Shown here: positions 8,152 to 17,998 of the stretch, piece by piece
Layout: the number at the start of each line of letters is the position of its first letter
How positions within the stretch are numbered: the stretch's first letter is position 1
Assembly (NCBI RefSeq): GCF_030734285.1
Contig: NZ_CP132294.1
Location: 2,728,001 to 2,792,000, forward strand
Direction of reading: 5' to 3'
Length of the DNA: 64,000 bases
Source of the DNA: Natronococcus sp. AD-5
GTDB taxonomy: Archaea > Halobacteriota > Halobacteria > Halobacteriales > Natrialbaceae
Position numbers and translations under genes: made by a program
The notes under the pieces: model-generated
Told to the model about the DNA's origin: nothing
What the model saw: the letters and a program-made list of their open reading frames with translations, nothing else
Databases searched by the model: none

Positions 8152-8550
8152 ATGCGGATGGAACTTCGGGTGTGTAAGCACTGTTACAACGGCGATCACG
8201 GGAACCCCCAGAAGACGGCGGTCACGAAGGACATGGTCGCCTGCGCCAGGCGGATCCGGGAGTACAAGGATCTCATCGGCATCGACTCGCTGTACATCTC
8301 GATGGCCGAGGAAGGCGACCGCGGCGGCGCCGAGGCGCTGACCGTCTACGTCGCGACCATCGAGAGCGATCAGATCCAGATGAACGACACCCAACTGGTG
8401 ATGGAGGACGACGACGGCAACACCCTCGTCTACCCCGAACCGGACGACGTCCTCGAGGTTCTCACGCGAAACATCGACCAGATCGCCGAACAGACGCGGC
8501 AGGACGTCACCGTCGAACTCTCGCCGGACAGCGCGGAACTCCTTTCCTGA
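8152..8550 (+). CDS. Small protein with N-terminal CxxC motif, unknown function
   Basis: The 132-residue product starts MRMELRVCKHCYNGDHG. The Cys-Lys-His-Cys pair and nearby His residues could bind a metal or take part in thiol redox. The rest is an alternating alpha/beta sequence with a strongly acidic end (DVTVELSPDSAELLS). I do not recognise the family. It precedes the large Fe-S protein on the same strand by about 120 bases. Because that gene seems to have its own promoter, the two need not be co-transcribed. A TATA box at the leaderless distance supports the start chosen. Confidence 0.7.
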   Translation: MRMELRVCKHCYNGDHGNPQKTAVTKDMVACARRIREYKDLIGIDSLYISMAEEGDRGGAEALTVYVATIESDQIQMNDTQLVMEDDDGNTLVYPEPDDVLEVLTRNIDQIAEQTRQDVTVELSPDSAELLS

Positions 8551-8672: not shown

Positions 8673-10811
8673 GTGAACGTTGGGTCCTTCATCTGCTCGT
8701 GCGCCGGGACGTGCGACATCGATCTGGAGGCCGCGCGGGAGGGGATCGATGGGGTCGACGTCGCCGCCAGTTCCCGACTGCTCTGTCAGGACGGACTCGC
8801 CGGCGTCGAACACGTCATCGAGGAGCACGACCTGCAGCAGCTCATCGTCACCTGTCCGGAGGCGACCGCCCAGGAGAAGATCGAAGAGACGGCGACGGAA
8901 CTGGGGCTCCACCCCGACGCCGTCGAGTTCGTCGATCAGCGCGAGAGCGCCGGCTGGGTGCACGACGAGTCGCAGGCGACCGCGAAGACCGCGCGGCTGG
9001 TCAACGCGCGCAACGCGGGCCTCGAGCAGGAGGCCGTCCACCGGTCGCTCACCCACGAGGCCGGCGACGCCGTCGCCGTGGTCGGCGATCCCGAGACGGC
9101 GGCCGGACTCGCCGAGAGCGCCGACGTGACCCTGGTCGCCGACGGGGCCGACTTCGCCGACGTCGAGTACGATCTCGACGACGTGACGATCGAACGCGGC
9201 CGCGTCGTCGCGGTCGACGGGAGTTTCGGCGAGTTCGAACTCGCGCTGCGCAGCCGCGTCACGGAGGACTGCATCTCCTGCATGAAGTGCGTCCACGAGG
9301 GGCCGCCGGGGAAGGTGACGCGGTACCCCGTCGACATCGACCCCGGCGTCGAGGACGAGTCGCTGCCCGAACTCTGCCCGACCGACGCCATCGACCTCGA
9401 GGGCGTCGAGCGAACCATCGAGGCCGACCAGGTCGTCTACCCGGACGCGAGCGACTCGGCCCGCGGCGGCCGCATCGGGTTTTACACCGCCCCGATCACC
9501 GCCTCGAAGGTCGCGGCGATCGAGCGGCAACTGGGCGGAATCACGAAACCGGAGTTTCTCGACCTCGAGATGGACGTCTGCGCCGCCGGCGACTCGAGCC
9601 AGACGGGCTGTAACGAGTGCGTCGAGGCCTGTCCGCACGGCGCCGTCGAGCGCGCGCGGATCGACGAGGTCGAGTTCCACGCCGAACTCTGCCAGAACTG
9701 CGGCGCCTGTACGAGTTCCTGTCCGACGGGCGCGACGATGCTCCGGGAGCCCTCGAACGAGCGCATCGCCCGCGAGGTCGAGGCGCTGCTAGCGCCCGAC
9801 GAGGTCGGGCGGAACTGGATTCCGGGTCGATCCGCATCGGGCATCGACGAGGCCGTCGTCGCCTTCGTCTGCTCGGAGCGGGCCGAGGACGCCCTGCGGG
9901 AGTACGGCCGCCTCGCGGCGGCCGGAAGGGCCGACGTCGAGTACCCGCCGATCCTGCCGGTTCGGGTCAACTGTACGGACACCGTCGGCGAGGCCCACGC
10001 GATGCACGCGCTCGCAGCCGGCGCCGACGGCGTCGCCGTCGTCGGCTGCGGGAGCAGCTGTCTGCACTCCGGCCCGGATCCGAAGGCCGAACTCGTCGAT
10101 CGCCTCAACCGGGCCACCGCGGATCTCGGCCTCGGCCGTCGCGTCGAGTTCTTCGCCCCGTCGGCCGGCGATCCCGACGAATTCGTCGACTCGGTCTCGG
10201 CGTTCGTCGACGACCTCGAGGACTCCCCCGTCCCCGCGGGTCAACACGAGGCGACCGGCGGCATCGACGATCCGGACCGCGAGAACCCGCCGTTCGACAG
10301 CCACGGCTGGACGCTCGAGAGCGTCCGCGCGATCCTCGAGCACGTCGATCCCGAACGGGAGGTCGTCCGCGGCCTGAAGGACTTCGGCCGCGTCGAGGTA
10401 GACGACGCCTGTACGCTGACGCCGACGTGCTCGAACCTCTGTCCGACCGACGCGCTCCGCCGGACCGAGACCGGCCTCGAGTTCAACCACGAGCGCTGCG
10501 TGAGCTGCGGCCTCTGCGAGGAGGGCTGCATCGAGGACGCGATCACCGTCCGCGACGGACTCGAGCTCTCGCTGCTCCCGGAGAACCGGCTCGACGAGGC
10601 GGACGATCCGGCGTGGTCGACGGTATTCGAGGGATCGATGCTCGAGTGTCGCGGCTGCGGGAAGGCGTTCACGAGCGAGCGCTCCGCGGAGCGGATCAAG
10701 GGCGAGGTGGGCGACCTCGTCTCCGGAATGATCCCCCACGACGAGGGCAGCATCTTCGACTACTGTTCCGACTGCCGATCGAGGCTGCTGTACCGCCGAA
10801 GCGGCGAGTGA
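8673..10811 (+). CDS. HdrA/MvhD-like multi-[4Fe-4S] electron-transfer protein
   Basis: Starting at the leaderless GTG, the product has 712 residues. Its N-terminus (VGSFICSCAGTCDIDL and later ESAGWVHDESQATAKTARLV) matches the start of heterodisulfide-reductase subunit HdrA. Ferredoxin-type clusters follow: CISCMKC with a later CP, CNECVEACPHGA, CQNCGACTSSCPTGA. A MvhD-like domain (VVAFVCSERAED through VVGCGSSCLHSG) comes next, then two more clusters (CSNLCPTDAL, CVSCGLCEEGC) and a CRGCGKAF...CSDC zinc-like end. The GxGxxG FAD site of true HdrA is not visible; the corresponding region reads AVAVVGDPETAAGL. It probably shuttles electrons in the cytosol, but its partners are unknown. No hydrogenase or HdrBC genes lie nearby. 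Confidence 0.85.
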   Translation: MNVGSFICSCAGTCDIDLEAAREGIDGVDVAASSRLLCQDGLAGVEHVIEEHDLQQLIVTCPEATAQEKIEETATELGLHPDAVEFVDQRESAGWVHDESQATAKTARLVNARNAGLEQEAVHRSLTHEAGDAVAVVGDPETAAGLAESADVTLVADGADFADVEYDLDDVTIERGRVVAVDGSFGEFELALRSRVTEDCISCMKCVHEGPPGKVTRYPVDIDPGVEDESLPELCPTDAIDLEGVERTIEADQVVYPDASDSARGGRIGFYTAPITASKVAAIERQLGGITKPEFLDLEMDVCAAGDSSQTGCNECVEACPHGAVERARIDEVEFHAELCQNCGACTSSCPTGATMLREPSNERIAREVEALLAPDEVGRNWIPGRSASGIDEAVVAFVCSERAEDALREYGRLAAAGRADVEYPPILPVRVNCTDTVGEAHAMHALAAGADGVAVVGCGSSCLHSGPDPKAELVDRLNRATADLGLGRRVEFFAPSAGDPDEFVDSVSAFVDDLEDSPVPAGQHEATGGIDDPDRENPPFDSHGWTLESVRAILEHVDPEREVVRGLKDFGRVEVDDACTLTPTCSNLCPTDALRRTETGLEFNHERCVSCGLCEEGCIEDAITVRDGLELSLLPENRLDEADDPAWSTVFEGSMLECRGCGKAFTSERSAERIKGEVGDLVSGMIPHDEGSIFDYCSDCRSRLLYRRSGE

Positions 10812-10836: not shown

Positions 10837-11211
10837 TCAGGGGCGATCGTCCGGCGTCTGCTGATCCTCGTCGAGAAACGCGCGAGCGAACAGGTCCACG
10901 TGGAGCTTCAACAGGCGCTCGGGCTCGAGCCCCGTCTCCGCGCCCTGGGCCTCGAGAAAGGACGCGAGGTCGTCGCTCGGCTCGTAGTACGCCGTCGTCT
11001 CCTCCTCCCCGAGTTCGAACTCGACGCCGACGGCGCCCGAAACGAGGTGTTCGATCTCCAGGAGCGCCTGCTCGACTTTCGCCTCGACCGCGGCCGACTC
11101 CGTCATGACGCGCGAGTCGCCCCACCGCTCGGCGGCCTCGAGGAACCGGTCGCTCAGTTCGATGGTCAACGCGTCCGATCCGTCGCCGGCGTCCGGCCGT
11201 TCGTCCGACAC
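10837..11211 (-). CDS. Small acidic protein, unknown function
   Basis: The 124-residue product is acidic and mostly helical (LSDRFLEAAERWGDSRVMTESAAVEAKVEQALLEIEHLV). A short stretch with Glu and Tyr (GEEETTAYYEPSDDL) leads to a C-terminal helical hairpin. No known motif is visible. It is convergent with the Fe-S protein gene, with 25 bases between the stops, and is followed on its upstream side by the AOR-paralogue operon on the same strand. Acidic bias and GC-rich third positions support coding. Confidence 0.65.
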   Translation of the reverse strand: MSDERPDAGDGSDALTIELSDRFLEAAERWGDSRVMTESAAVEAKVEQALLEIEHLVSGAVGVEFELGEEETTAYYEPSDDLASFLEAQGAETGLEPERLLKLHVDLFARAFLDEDQQTPDDRP

Positions 11212-11295: not shown

Positions 11296-12078
11296 TCAGG
11301 ACTCGAGGTCCCAGCCGGCCTTCTCGGCCGCCGTCTCGAGCGGGACGAACTCCCAGTCGGCGGCGTCGGCGATCGCGTCGTCGCCCTCGAGGCCGATGAC
11401 GACCATCCGCTCGGCGTAGAACATCGACGTGCGGTCGATCTCGCGAAGCCGCTCGCCCGGGCTCGTCCCGCTGCCGGTGAAGAAGTCGGCGTCGACGGCG
11501 TGGGTCCGCTGGAACTTCGTGATCGCGTGGGTCTCGACGTCGCCGACGATCCCGATCCAGTCCGCCCAGGAAGAGGCGTCCGCGAAAACGGCTGCGGGGG
11601 CCGCCAACCGCCGAACCGCCCGGTAGGTGAAGGCGATCGTCATGTCGTCGACGCCGCCGCCGTGCGGACCCTCGGCGGCCGATCCCGCCGGTCGCGGCTC
11701 GGCGGTCGGCTCCTCCGGTTCGGCCATCGTCTCTTCGGGCTCGCTCGAGTCGCCGGCGCCCGCTCCGCCGCTCTGCGTCGGGATTCCGACGGGCCCGCCC
11801 CTGTTCGCCCGGGGGACGTGCGGTGCGGGTTGCGACGAAGGATCGGTGTCGGCGTCGGTTTCGACGTCGGCAGCCGCGGTCGATTCGTCCGACGCCGCGT
11901 CCGAGGTCTCCGGTCCCGCATCCGATCGCTCGACCGCGGGACCGGTGGTCCGCGGCGGGTCCGGTTCCCCCTCGGGGCTGCCCTCGCCGCGCCAGAGCCA
12001 GTCGCCGGGGTTCGCTTCCTCGGTCTCCGCTTCGTCCTCCCCCACGTCGAGTTCGTCGAGGTCGATTCGTTCAGTCAT
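11296..12078 (-). CDS. Acidic protein with conserved C-terminal domain, partner of the AOR paralogue
   Basis: The 260-residue protein has a disordered acidic first half (residues 1 to about 145, rich in Glu, Asp, Pro, Ala and Ser). An ordered C-terminal domain of about 110 residues begins DDMTIAFTYRAVRRLAAP and contains WADWIGIVGDVE, AITKFQRTHAVDADFF and FYAERMVVIGLEG. From memory a haloarchaeal DUF of this type (DUF7124) exists; no function is known to me. Its ATG overlaps the stop of the AOR-like gene by eight bases (ATGACTGA), so the two are surely translated together. That suggests a shared complex or pathway. Confidence 0.75.
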   Translation of the reverse strand: MTERIDLDELDVGEDEAETEEANPGDWLWRGEGSPEGEPDPPRTTGPAVERSDAGPETSDAASDESTAAADVETDADTDPSSQPAPHVPRANRGGPVGIPTQSGGAGAGDSSEPEETMAEPEEPTAEPRPAGSAAEGPHGGGVDDMTIAFTYRAVRRLAAPAAVFADASSWADWIGIVGDVETHAITKFQRTHAVDADFFTGSGTSPGERLREIDRTSMFYAERMVVIGLEGDDAIADAADWEFVPLETAAEKAGWDLES

Positions 12079-13852
12079 CGTCGGATGCTCGGTGCGTCGG
12101 TCGGTCGAACTCGAGGTCCTCGAGTCCGTGGCGTTCGATCGTCTCCTCGGTCGGGCAGCCGCGCTCGTCCCAGCCGCGCCGATCGTAGTAGCACTCGAGG
12201 GTCCGCTCGAACGAGTCCGGAGCGATCGCCGCCCCCTCGTTCGGGCCGCCCTCGAGCGGTTCGGTCAGCCGTTGCGGAAGCGCGTCGTCGTCCCGCGTGA
12301 ATCCCTCGCGGACGTTGAACAGCCGGATCAGCGTCCAGATGCGCGCGCCGGTCCGACGGAGTTCCTCGGGTTCGTACTCGCGGCCGATCGCCGCGAGCCA
12401 GTCCGCGCCGAGCGTCGCCGACAGCGCCTCGCCGAAGAAGTCGTCGGCGACGAGGCTCCAGAGCACCGCCCGGCGGTCCTGCTCCGCGATCACCGCGTTC
12501 ACGCGGTCGGCGCGGCTCCAGTCGGTTCCCGCGAGCGCCTCCACCTCGACGGGGCGGGCCCGGCGGTGACAGGCGCCGCGGTCGCTCGTCGCGTACGCGA
12601 GCGCCATCGCCGACGCGCCTCGAGGATCGTACGACGGCAGCGCCATGCCCTTCACCGACGGGATCAGGTCGTCGCCGCCGTACTCAGCGGCGGCCGCGTC
12701 GGTTCCGTCCGCGAGGGCGTCGCCGAGCGGAGTCGAGCGGGTCGCGATCTCCTCGATGAGCCGGCGGGCGTCGTCCTCGTCGCCGAAAGAGAGGTCGCGC
12801 TCGAGCAGCCCCGTCTCGCTCGCGCGGATCGCCCACGCGACGGCGTTGCCGCCGGAGATCACGTCGAGCGCCAGCCGATCGCAGATCGACCCGAGCGCGG
12901 CGACGGCGTCGAAGTCGTCGATGCCCAGCCCCGCCCCGAGCGAGATCGGCGTTGAGCCCCGCGGCACGCTCTCGCCGTCGTCGCTCTCGACCTGGAAGCC
13001 GCCCGGAACGGGGTCGTCGGCCCGCTCGCGGTCGTGGGCGGCATCGCGGACGGCCTCGATGCCGATCCCCTCGGCGCCCTCGAACGTCCCCTCCTGCCAG
13101 CCGTGCGTCGGCAGGACGCCCACCTCGTTCGCGAAGTCGAGCGTCTCGAGGGTCTCGCTGGCGGCCTGCCAGCGGCCGGTGTCGTCGGCGGCGAACGCCG
13201 CCTCGTACTTCTCGCGGAGTTCGCGCAGGTCGTCGTCGGGTTCCGGCGGGCCGTCGCGGGCGACCAGGGCCTTCAGTCGCTTGGCGCCCATCACCGCACC
13301 AGCGCCGCCGCGGCCGGCGTGGTGGTCGCCGCCGTCGGAGGCGATCGTGGCGTACGAGACGCCGTTCTCGCCGGCGGGGCCGATACACGCGACCGCGGCG
13401 TCCGGGACCCGCTCGTCGGTCTCTCGAGCGTCGAGTCCCCACCACTTCTCAACTGACTCGATCGAGACCTCGCCGCCGGCGATCGAGAGCGCGACGGGGC
13501 GGTCGGCGCGACCGGAGACGATGATCCCGGCGTGGTCGCCGAGCGATCCCGCGAGTCGGCCGGCCATCGATCCCCCCGCGTAGGAGTCCAGGAACGCCCC
13601 CGTCAGCGGGGATTTCGTCACGACGACGTACCGTTGCTCTCCGGGGAGATACCCCGTCAGCGGCCCGGTGAAAAAGCAGAGCACGTTCTCGTCGCCGAGC
13701 GGATCGGCGCCGGTCGCCAGTTCCTCGTACAGGTACCGCGCGCCGAGGCCCTTGCCGCCGATGTACTTCCGGCGCCACGCGTCCGGCACCGGTTCGCTCC
13801 GCACGGACTCGTCCGCGAGATCGACGCGAACGACAGTGTCCCCCGTTACCAT
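12071..13852 (-). CDS. Aldehyde:ferredoxin oxidoreductase-family protein lacking Fe-S cysteines
   Basis: The 593-residue product is an AOR-family tungstopterin protein. N-terminal hallmarks include YIGGKGLGARYLYEEL (residues about 30-45), FFTGPLTG, VVTKSPLTGAFLDSYAGG and GRGGAGAVMGAKRLKAL (about 181-197); later come LPTHGWQEGTFEGAE and DRLALDVISGGNAVAW. In characterised AORs one [4Fe-4S] cluster is held by a Cx2Cx3C motif just after the EGTFEGAE-like segment and by a Cys near residue 490. Here residues 270-300 contain no Cys, and the later position reads WSLVADDFF. The six cysteines left are scattered. Met at 13852 is preferred over a start 30 bases upstream because it gives the family N-terminus. 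The gene overlaps the downstream acidic-protein gene. Confidence 0.88.
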   Translation of the reverse strand: MVTGDTVVRVDLADESVRSEPVPDAWRRKYIGGKGLGARYLYEELATGADPLGDENVLCFFTGPLTGYLPGEQRYVVVTKSPLTGAFLDSYAGGSMAGRLAGSLGDHAGIIVSGRADRPVALSIAGGEVSIESVEKWWGLDARETDERVPDAAVACIGPAGENGVSYATIASDGGDHHAGRGGAGAVMGAKRLKALVARDGPPEPDDDLRELREKYEAAFAADDTGRWQAASETLETLDFANEVGVLPTHGWQEGTFEGAEGIGIEAVRDAAHDRERADDPVPGGFQVESDDGESVPRGSTPISLGAGLGIDDFDAVAALGSICDRLALDVISGGNAVAWAIRASETGLLERDLSFGDEDDARRLIEEIATRSTPLGDALADGTDAAAAEYGGDDLIPSVKGMALPSYDPRGASAMALAYATSDRGACHRRARPVEVEALAGTDWSRADRVNAVIAEQDRRAVLWSLVADDFFGEALSATLGADWLAAIGREYEPEELRRTGARIWTLIRLFNVREGFTRDDDALPQRLTEPLEGGPNEGAAIAPDSFERTLECYYDRRGWDERGCPTEETIERHGLEDLEFDRPTHRASDDD

Positions 13853-13920: not shown

Positions 13921-14649
13921 TCAGACGACGCCGACGACGGGGTCGTCGTCGATCAGCCGGGTGAGGACGACGCGCGAAACGTCCCGCCGGTCGCGGACCG
14001 CCCGCGCGATCTCTCGCGCCGTCTCCTCGAGTTCGGGCGAATCCACCATGTTGAGCAACGGAACGACGGCCGCGTTGTCGGGAACGTCCTTCCAGCCGCC
14101 CCGGTCGCTCGTCAGGACGGTCGCGACGTCGGCCGCCGAAATTCGATCCCCGGGCTCGAGGTCCGTGGTCGCGGCGACCCGCTCGGGGCGGTGGACGTGC
14201 TCCTCGTCCAGCCGCCGGCCGACGACCTTGGCGCTCGCGATCGGGACGACGACGTCGGCCGTAGCCGGGAGTTGCGGTTCGTCGTCGGCGGGCGCCTTGA
14301 ACCAGCGGGTCCGCGCGCCGTCGGCCTTGACGACGACCGAGACGTCCGCCTCGAGATCGCGCGCGAAGTCGTCGACGGTTTCGGGATCGTAGCCGAGGTA
14401 CCGGTCCGACCCCTCGCGACCGGCGACGACGCCGATCGGCCACGCTTCGGCCGATTCGATCGCCTCGAGCGGCCGATCCGTCACGGCGACCTCGGCGACG
14501 CGCTCCCCGAAGGGCGGAATGCGGACGGTCGCGGTCACGATCGCGCGCTCGAGTCGGTCGGCGAGCGCGTAGAGGGTCGATTTCTTGCCGCCGGCTCCCA
14601 CGACACACGTCAGCGCGCCGTCCGCGTTTAACGCCTCGACGAGGTCCAT
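13921..14649 (-). CDS. yqeC: YqeC-like (selenium/molybdenum cofactor-associated) protein
   Basis: The 242-residue protein shows a Walker-A-like loop near the N-terminus (CVVGAGGKKSTLYALA, residues about 14-29) and the characteristic VKADGARTRWFKAPADDEPQ segment (about 110-129). A DVVVPIASAKVVGRRL stretch follows. These are landmarks of the YqeC family, which in bacteria travels with selenium-dependent molybdenum hydroxylases and XdhC/MocA-type maturation genes; the reaction is unsettled. Here it lies 68 bases upstream of the AOR-like gene on the same strand, in line with a role in pterin-metal cofactor handling. The internal ATG at 14649 is chosen because 19 codons of upstream extension are Arg-rich and untypical. 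Confidence 0.8.
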   Translation of the reverse strand: MDLVEALNADGALTCVVGAGGKKSTLYALADRLERAIVTATVRIPPFGERVAEVAVTDRPLEAIESAEAWPIGVVAGREGSDRYLGYDPETVDDFARDLEADVSVVVKADGARTRWFKAPADDEPQLPATADVVVPIASAKVVGRRLDEEHVHRPERVAATTDLEPGDRISAADVATVLTSDRGGWKDVPDNAAVVPLLNMVDSPELEETAREIARAVRDRRDVSRVVLTRLIDDDPVVGVV

Positions 14650-17065: not shown

Positions 17066-17764
17066 TTACTCGATCCTCCCGAAGAAGCCGCTCGATTCGT
17101 CGTCCTCGCCGTCGTCGTCCTCGTCATCCTCGTCATCCTCGTCGTTATCGTCGTCATCGCTCTCATCTTCGTCGCCGGATCCGTCGTCATCGTCGCCGGA
17201 TCCGTCGTCTTCGTCGTCGTCGCTCTCATCTTCGTCACCGGATTCCTCATCTTCATCGTCGGACTCCTCGTCTTCATCGTCACCGGATTCGTCGTCCTCG
17301 TCATCCTCGTCGTCCTCGTCGTCAGCCTCGTCACCGTCGGATTCACCGTCATCGCTTTCGTCCTCGTCATCCTCCTCGTCTTCGTCGTCATCGCTCTCAT
17401 CTTCGTCACCGGATTCGTCGTCATCGCCGTCCCCAGACTCTCCGTCTTCGTCGTCGGACTCCCCGTCGTCGCTCGTCGATTCGCTGCCGTCCGTCTCGTC
17501 GTCGACAGACTCGTTTCCTTCCTCGTCCGATCCGTCGCCATCATCGTCGTCGGTCGAGACGGCGTCGGACGGATCCTCGTCCGTACCGGGCGGTTCGTCG
17601 ACGGCCCCGCCGGAGTCCGGGCCGTTCCCGCCGGGGCCGAGGCCGAGACCGACGCCGGCGACGGTCGCGCCGATGGCGACGAGAACGACCAGCGCCGTCG
17701 CGAGAACGACACCGGCCGAGACGCCGTCGCGTGCATCGCGCTCGCGTCTTCGCTCGGTTGACAT
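17066..17764 (-). CDS. Single-pass membrane protein with long Asp/Glu/Ser tail
   Basis: The 232-residue product starts with a short basic segment (MSTERRRERDARD), then one clear membrane helix (VSAGVVLATALVVLVAIGATVAG). About 180 residues follow that are almost only Asp, Glu, Ser and Gly, with repeating DDED, SGDEDESDD and EDDEDES units. It ends with a small hydrophobic tag, GFFGRIE. The topology suggests an N-in anchor with a polyanionic outer tail that could bind cations or hold water at high salt. No enzyme motif is present. The antisense strand is open too and reads as Val/Ile-rich protein, which is the expected shadow of such codons. Confidence 0.7.
   Translation of the reverse strand: MSTERRRERDARDGVSAGVVLATALVVLVAIGATVAGVGLGLGPGGNGPDSGGAVDEPPGTDEDPSDAVSTDDDDGDGSDEEGNESVDDETDGSESTSDDGESDDEDGESGDGDDDESGDEDESDDDEDEEDDEDESDDGESDGDEADDEDDEDDEDDESGDDEDEESDDEDEESGDEDESDDDEDDGSGDDDDGSGDEDESDDDDNDEDDEDDEDDDGEDDESSGFFGRIE
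17105..17480. repeat. Trinucleotide low-complexity tract (TCG/TCC/TCA/TCT units)
   Basis: About 375 bases of imperfect triplet repeats encode the Asp/Glu/Ser tail on the minus strand. On the plus strand they appear as tcgtcctcgtcatc-type runs. Tracts of this kind can change length by slippage or recombination, always in steps of three, so the protein frame would be kept. Confidence 0.7.
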
Positions 17765-17998
17765 CGTGCGACGATAGAGACATCGAACCATGATTGTTAA
17801 GCGCCGCAAACCGTCGAAACGGGATCGAGCGCGCCGTGTAAACGGACTCGAGGGTCGGGCGCGAGCTCTCTCCGTAACGATCGCTAGCAGCGAATCGACG
17901 GTGCATCGGGTAGGCGGTCGGTAACGAACCGTTCTCGACGACGAACGGTGCGGTCCGGAACCGAAACGACTACCGGAACGCGTTCGTACCGCTGTCCC

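Follow-up and report, generated by a model that had tools for sequence, protein, structure and literature searches.

The closest described systems are the large subunits of the class I WOR/AOR enzymes, represented by Pyrococcus furiosus aldehyde oxidoreductase (PfAOR; 1AOR), the electron-bifurcating AmWOR (9MQX), and Haloferax volcanii WOR83 (9Q1T). Aldehyde oxidoreductases (AORs) have Glu313, Tyr427, His448, and Thr243 in common near the metal, and Glu311 and Tyr312 are highly conserved as well (PMC12096430, PMC13328260); all tungstoenzymes described contain at least one Fe4S4 cluster (PMC12096430). The window (the whole 64,000-nt stretch of Natronococcus sp. AD-5 DNA that was analyzed) encodes a family member, AORX, that shares with class I WOR/AOR large subunits both AFOR domains, Thr243, Tyr427, and His448, and glycine-rich cofactor-binding motifs but differs from them in having no [4Fe-4S] ligands, in carrying Arg-Gly-(Ala/Ser/Gly) in place of Glu311-Tyr312-Glu313, and in the replacement of Asp489 by Trp. 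Among the open-access papers searched, none was found to describe an AOR clade without the cluster.

A second group of described systems comprises the accessory proteins of molybdoenzymes. In bacteria, FdhD sulfurates the cofactor of formate dehydrogenases (FDHs) and hands it on; FdhD and XdhC bind cofactor via Rossmann/nucleotide sites. Halobacteria possess FDH without fdhD, and the responsible proteins have been named an open question (PMC10609526). For YqeC, in turn, an accessory role has been proposed in the system of selenium-dependent molybdenum hydroxylases (SDMH) (PMC2276186); deletion of yqeC in C. difficile gave no clear phenotype (PMC11448449).

The AORX gene and its altered active site

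AORX lies at positions 12071 to 13852 on the minus strand, where a reading frame of 593 codons runs from an ATG at 13852 to a stop at 12071 without internal stops. The 593-aa product matches PF02730 (AFOR_N; 216 bits) and PF01314 (AFOR_C; 327 bits) over its full length (cut-offs, 30 and 27, respectively), and the Pfam domain search found no DNA-binding or additional domain. An AlphaFold2 model built from 85 aligned sequences (mean pLDDT, 91.9; pTM, 0.93) displays the three-domain AOR fold and matches 1AOR (TM-score, 0.92; rmsd, 2.1 Å) and 9MQX (TM-score, 0.92) over the whole fold. By fold and domains, AORX belongs to the AOR/WOR family.

The preliminary description of this DNA had claimed an AOR-family paralogue without [4Fe-4S] ligands, and alignment to 1AOR bears this out: the positions of PfAOR Cys288, Cys291, Cys295, and Cys494 are occupied in AORX by a gap, Asp, Gly, and Asp, so that Cys is found at none of the four. 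The AOR hallmark motifs quoted in that description are present in the translation, and, as it had stated, no Cys follows EGTFEGAE, the entire interval up to SICDRLALD being free of this residue. The former Cx2Cx3C loop (residues 275 to 286; 12995 to 13030, minus strand) now reads RERADDPVPGGF, and the fourth cluster ligand, Cys494, is replaced by Asp470 (12443 to 12445, minus strand), which is invariant in two alignments (75/75 and 76/76). Across the AORX clade, the Cx2Cx3C loop has turned into REx...GGF, with a gap at the position of Cys288, a variable residue (D, E, S, A, G, or R) at that of Cys291, and Gly at that of Cys295. Four further AOR paralogues encoded in the same genome each possess the CxxCxxxC motif and the late Cys.

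Two observations go beyond the preliminary description, namely, the minus-strand location of the gene and a further loss at the active site. RGS (residues 298 to 300; 12953 to 12961, minus strand) stands where PfAOR has the conserved Glu311-Tyr312-Glu313, and this motif is gone from every AORX orthologue: Glu311 is replaced by Arg in 74 of 75 family members, Tyr312 by Gly in 75/75, and Glu313 by Ala, Ser, or Gly in 75/75, with Trp in place of Asp489 in all members. Retained are Thr243, Tyr427, and His448 (75/75), as well as the segments GRGGxGxVMGxKxLK and SPLTGxFLDSYxGG. Because AORX has neither the electron exit nor Glu313, the proposed general acid, the published AOR mechanism cannot operate in it. 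Without these defining catalytic features, AORX should be classed neither as an aldehyde oxidoreductase nor as a proven tungstoenzyme.

Orthologues, single origin, and selection

Loss of the cluster is common to all full-length AORX orthologues examined (54 to 91% identity, from dozens of genera of Halobacteria), each of which has 0/4 [4Fe-4S] ligands. The preliminary description had named two observations that would count against it, Cys residues of this protein at the four cluster positions and sister species with the motif, the latter pointing to a strain-specific defect; neither was seen in AORX and the orthologues examined, and the loss is not a local defect. Its occurrence in all of these orthologues, from many genera, cannot be put down to chance or to sequencing error. 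Several Haloarcula species are among the organisms with an orthologue.

AORX has a single origin: in a phylogeny from which the trait columns were removed before tree building, and which derives from a short search without bootstrap, the roughly 70 haloarchaeal orthologues, all without the Cys ligands, fall into a single clade (SH-aLRT, 100), to which a Cys-bearing clade is sister (99). This small haloarchaeal sister clade (L093, L094, L095, and L129) keeps all four Cys residues and the EYE motif, is 44 to 45% identical to AORX over the whole length, and has Asn93Tyr, Arg182His, and Ala183His in common with it. As an observation in its own right, these four proteins, with Tyr93, His182, and His183, are the closest catalytic-type relatives of AORX. 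The nearest homologue outside Halobacteria (L121), with no Moco genes in its neighborhood, keeps all Cys residues and already has Trp at position 489, and the Asp489Trp change therefore probably came first. Given that the other changes also occur in the sister clade or in L121, those specific to the AORX clade are the losses of the cluster and of the EYE motif.

In comparisons with close relatives, AORX has dN/dS values of 0.14 to 0.32, denoting purifying selection, and 17% of the columns in the family alignment are invariant, including those of the new residues Arg285, Glu286, Trp475, and Asp480 (603-aa numbering). Together with the intact 593 codons, these values uphold the earlier view that the gene is not decayed.

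Genomic neighbors and co-occurrence with YqeC and formate dehydrogenase

The next gene upstream of AORX (13921 to 14649, minus strand) encodes YqeC (TIGR03172, 167.7 bits against a cut-off of 73; PF19842), which bears the nucleotide-binding-type motif VGAGGKKST and whose model gives weak fold matches (TM-score, ~0.4) to P-loop NTPases of the SIMIBI type, such as the cofactor chaperones MeaB/IcmF. On the other side of AORX, the start of a DUF7124 protein gene (PF23439; 11296 to 12078, minus strand) shares 8 bp with the end of AORX, making translational coupling of the two possible. There follow a small conserved protein (10837 to 11211, minus strand), for which no Pfam or NCBIfam match was found and which recurs in the cluster at 15 loci, and, on the plus strand, an HdrA-like polyferredoxin protein with an FlpD domain (8673 to 10811; assigned by domain matches). 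The latter recurs in the formate dehydrogenase version of the cluster (21 loci) and is possibly an electron-transfer partner of FDH. Upstream of the HdrA-like gene, positions 8152 to 8550 encode a short Cys-containing protein for which no NCBIfam match was found. Elsewhere in the window, positions 17066 to 17809 (minus strand) encode a predicted membrane-anchored protein with a very acidic, low-complexity Asp/Glu/Ser tail, opposite which long overlapping frames occur on the other strand. The fdhA genes of this genome are located away from AORX.

In a survey of AORX neighborhoods (67 loci and a few more), fdhA was detected near AORX at 41 loci (TIGR01591, above cut-off), YqeC at 35, the HdrA-like polyferredoxin at 21, and a TorD-like chaperone at 21; DUF7124 occurs at 22 loci and is on the same strand as, and near, AORX at 19. 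Some loci also contain FdhB-, NrfD-, MobA-, MoaA-, and MoaD-like genes, names that derive from sequence reading without a family search. Where YqeC is present, it lies upstream of AORX at 33/34 loci, usually as the next gene, and within 0.85 kb at all but one (L013). The two genes are divergent at some loci and co-directional at others, where a mobA-like gene sometimes separates them. At many loci AORX is accompanied by YqeC but not by fdhA, and in Halorubrum AORX is found beside YqeC with no fdhA within 8 kb.

The distribution of AORX is nested within that of YqeC. Among 174 Halobacteria genomes that are at least 90% complete, AORX (identity of ~52% or more) occurs in 98; in comparisons partly corrected for phylogeny, with counts transcribed by hand from tables, YqeC is present in all 98 of these genomes versus 24/76 of those without AORX (P = 5e-26), and a strong match to FDH is present in 94/98 versus 33/76. 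The same pattern holds within the 12 genera in which AORX is present in some genomes and absent from others: genomes with AORX always have YqeC, which is absent from 19 of the 34 genomes without AORX. YqeC itself occurs in 117/125 FDH-containing genomes versus 5/49 without FDH (FDH-positive genomes total 127 in the AORX comparison and 125, as strong matches, in the YqeC comparison). AORX is absent from 23 genomes that have both FDH and YqeC; FDH therefore does not depend on it there, and AORX would be an auxiliary rather than a universal FDH factor. A search for FdhD (PF02634) found it in none of 59 Halobacteria genomes, the control search detecting it in 8 other genomes.

With YqeC directly adjoining, the AORX system resembles the YqeC/YqeB accessory system of SDMH, but it differs in that it is tied to formate dehydrogenase rather than to SDMH and in that genomes with YqeC mostly have no SelD (107 of the 122 YqeC-containing genomes among the 174). 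SelD occurs in just 15/174 genomes and, above cut-off, is absent from 85 of the 98 with AORX; a selenium link of AORX through YqeC was rejected for most genomes on this account. SelD is present in the genome to which the window belongs: at another locus of this genome (L133; G000 C2:423405-434034), a second YqeC adjoins true SelD and a cluster with XdhC-like/DsrE-like genes, which makes the locus a candidate for an SDMH system.

Proposed role and alternatives

The reading that we prefer, at a probability of roughly 45%, is that AORX, an AOR/WOR family protein that is redox-dead, binds a Mo/W cofactor of the bis-pterin type, or an intermediate of that cofactor, and acts with YqeC in maturation of the haloarchaeal FDH cofactor. 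The two-pterin pocket would have been retained, whereas the [4Fe-4S] electron exit and the catalytic acid are gone; together with YqeC, a P-loop protein, AORX may mature, hold, or deliver the cofactor of haloarchaeal formate dehydrogenase, a route that would serve organisms without FdhD. Speaking against this reading are the 23 genomes that have FDH and YqeC but not AORX, the Halorubrum loci without nearby fdhA, and the distance of the fdhA genes from AORX in the window's own genome. We infer pterin binding, a carrier or scaffold role, and direct action on formate dehydrogenase. In holding, modifying, or delivering a pterin cofactor for one molybdoenzyme, AORX would resemble FdhD, XdhC, and TorD-type Moco chaperones; unlike these, to which its fold is unrelated, it would be a re-purposed enzyme body. 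A more specific version, in which YqeC and AORX are the missing FdhD substitute of haloarchaea (AORX as a tungstoenzyme body converted into a dedicated bis-pterin carrier for FDH, and YqeC as a factor for loading or sulfuration that is driven by nucleotide and independent of selenium), is possible, though we lean against it.

Of the three roles raised in the preliminary description, a cofactor-binding paralogue is favored by the co-occurrence and adjacency of YqeC and by the linkage to FDH and Moco genes, and a different electron acceptor is weakened because Glu313 and Glu311/Tyr312 were lost together with the cluster. Invariant Thr243, Tyr427, and His448 argue against a mere carrier, as they could mean that the active site is still used. 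In that case, AORX would remain an enzyme in which a Mo/W bis-pterin cofactor supports a non-redox reaction or cluster-free redox chemistry (hydride or direct substrate-to-substrate transfer) through Tyr427, His448, Thr243, and the new Arg. This alternative, which we consider unlikely, draws on the conservation of those three residues (75/75), on the new Arg-Gly pair at 311 and 312, and on the class II BCR and YdhV relatives, which bind the cofactor although they, too, lack second-shell residues (PMC12096430); against it, no tungstoenzyme described is without an Fe4S4 cluster (PMC12096430). Moreover, AORX has lost the general acid Glu313 along with its partners Glu311 and Tyr312, and its genomic context comprises cofactor maturation and FDH, with no substrate pathway.

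Respiratory complexes commonly contain pseudo-catalytic subunits, and the recurrence of fdhA and HdrA-like genes at AORX loci would also suit AORX as a structural subunit of the formate dehydrogenase/HdrA-like complex or as its sensor of cofactor level. We regard such a role as decidedly unlikely, however: YqeC is a stricter partner of AORX than is FDH (98/98 versus 94/98), many loci combine YqeC and AORX without fdhA, and AORX has no DNA-binding or extra domain. It is very improbable that AORX is still an ordinary AOR, its center unusual in that the cluster is rebuilt on other ligands such as the invariant Asp and a Glu, Asp, or Arg of the new loop. P. furiosus WOR5/ASOR does use three Cys and one Asp (PMC12096430), and the Asp at position 494 is invariant in AORX, but the loop contains no Cys, the position of Cys295 is Gly, and the catalytic EYE motif is lost as well; the variability of the loop position aligned with Cys291 in particular makes alternative ligands unlikely. 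A decaying pseudogene or a sequencing or annotation artefact, to which the missing motif alone might point, is refuted by the dN/dS values, by intact copies in dozens of genera, and by the conservation of invariant new residues.

Domain-based annotation would name AORX an aldehyde ferredoxin oxidoreductase, and yet the known AOR mechanism cannot apply to this widespread haloarchaeal branch. The strict tie between AORX and YqeC offers a lead on how halobacteria without fdhD insert and sulfurate the FDH cofactor (PMC10609526). As for YqeC, which is named a selenium cofactor protein, the data argue for a mostly selenium-independent role in Halobacteria.
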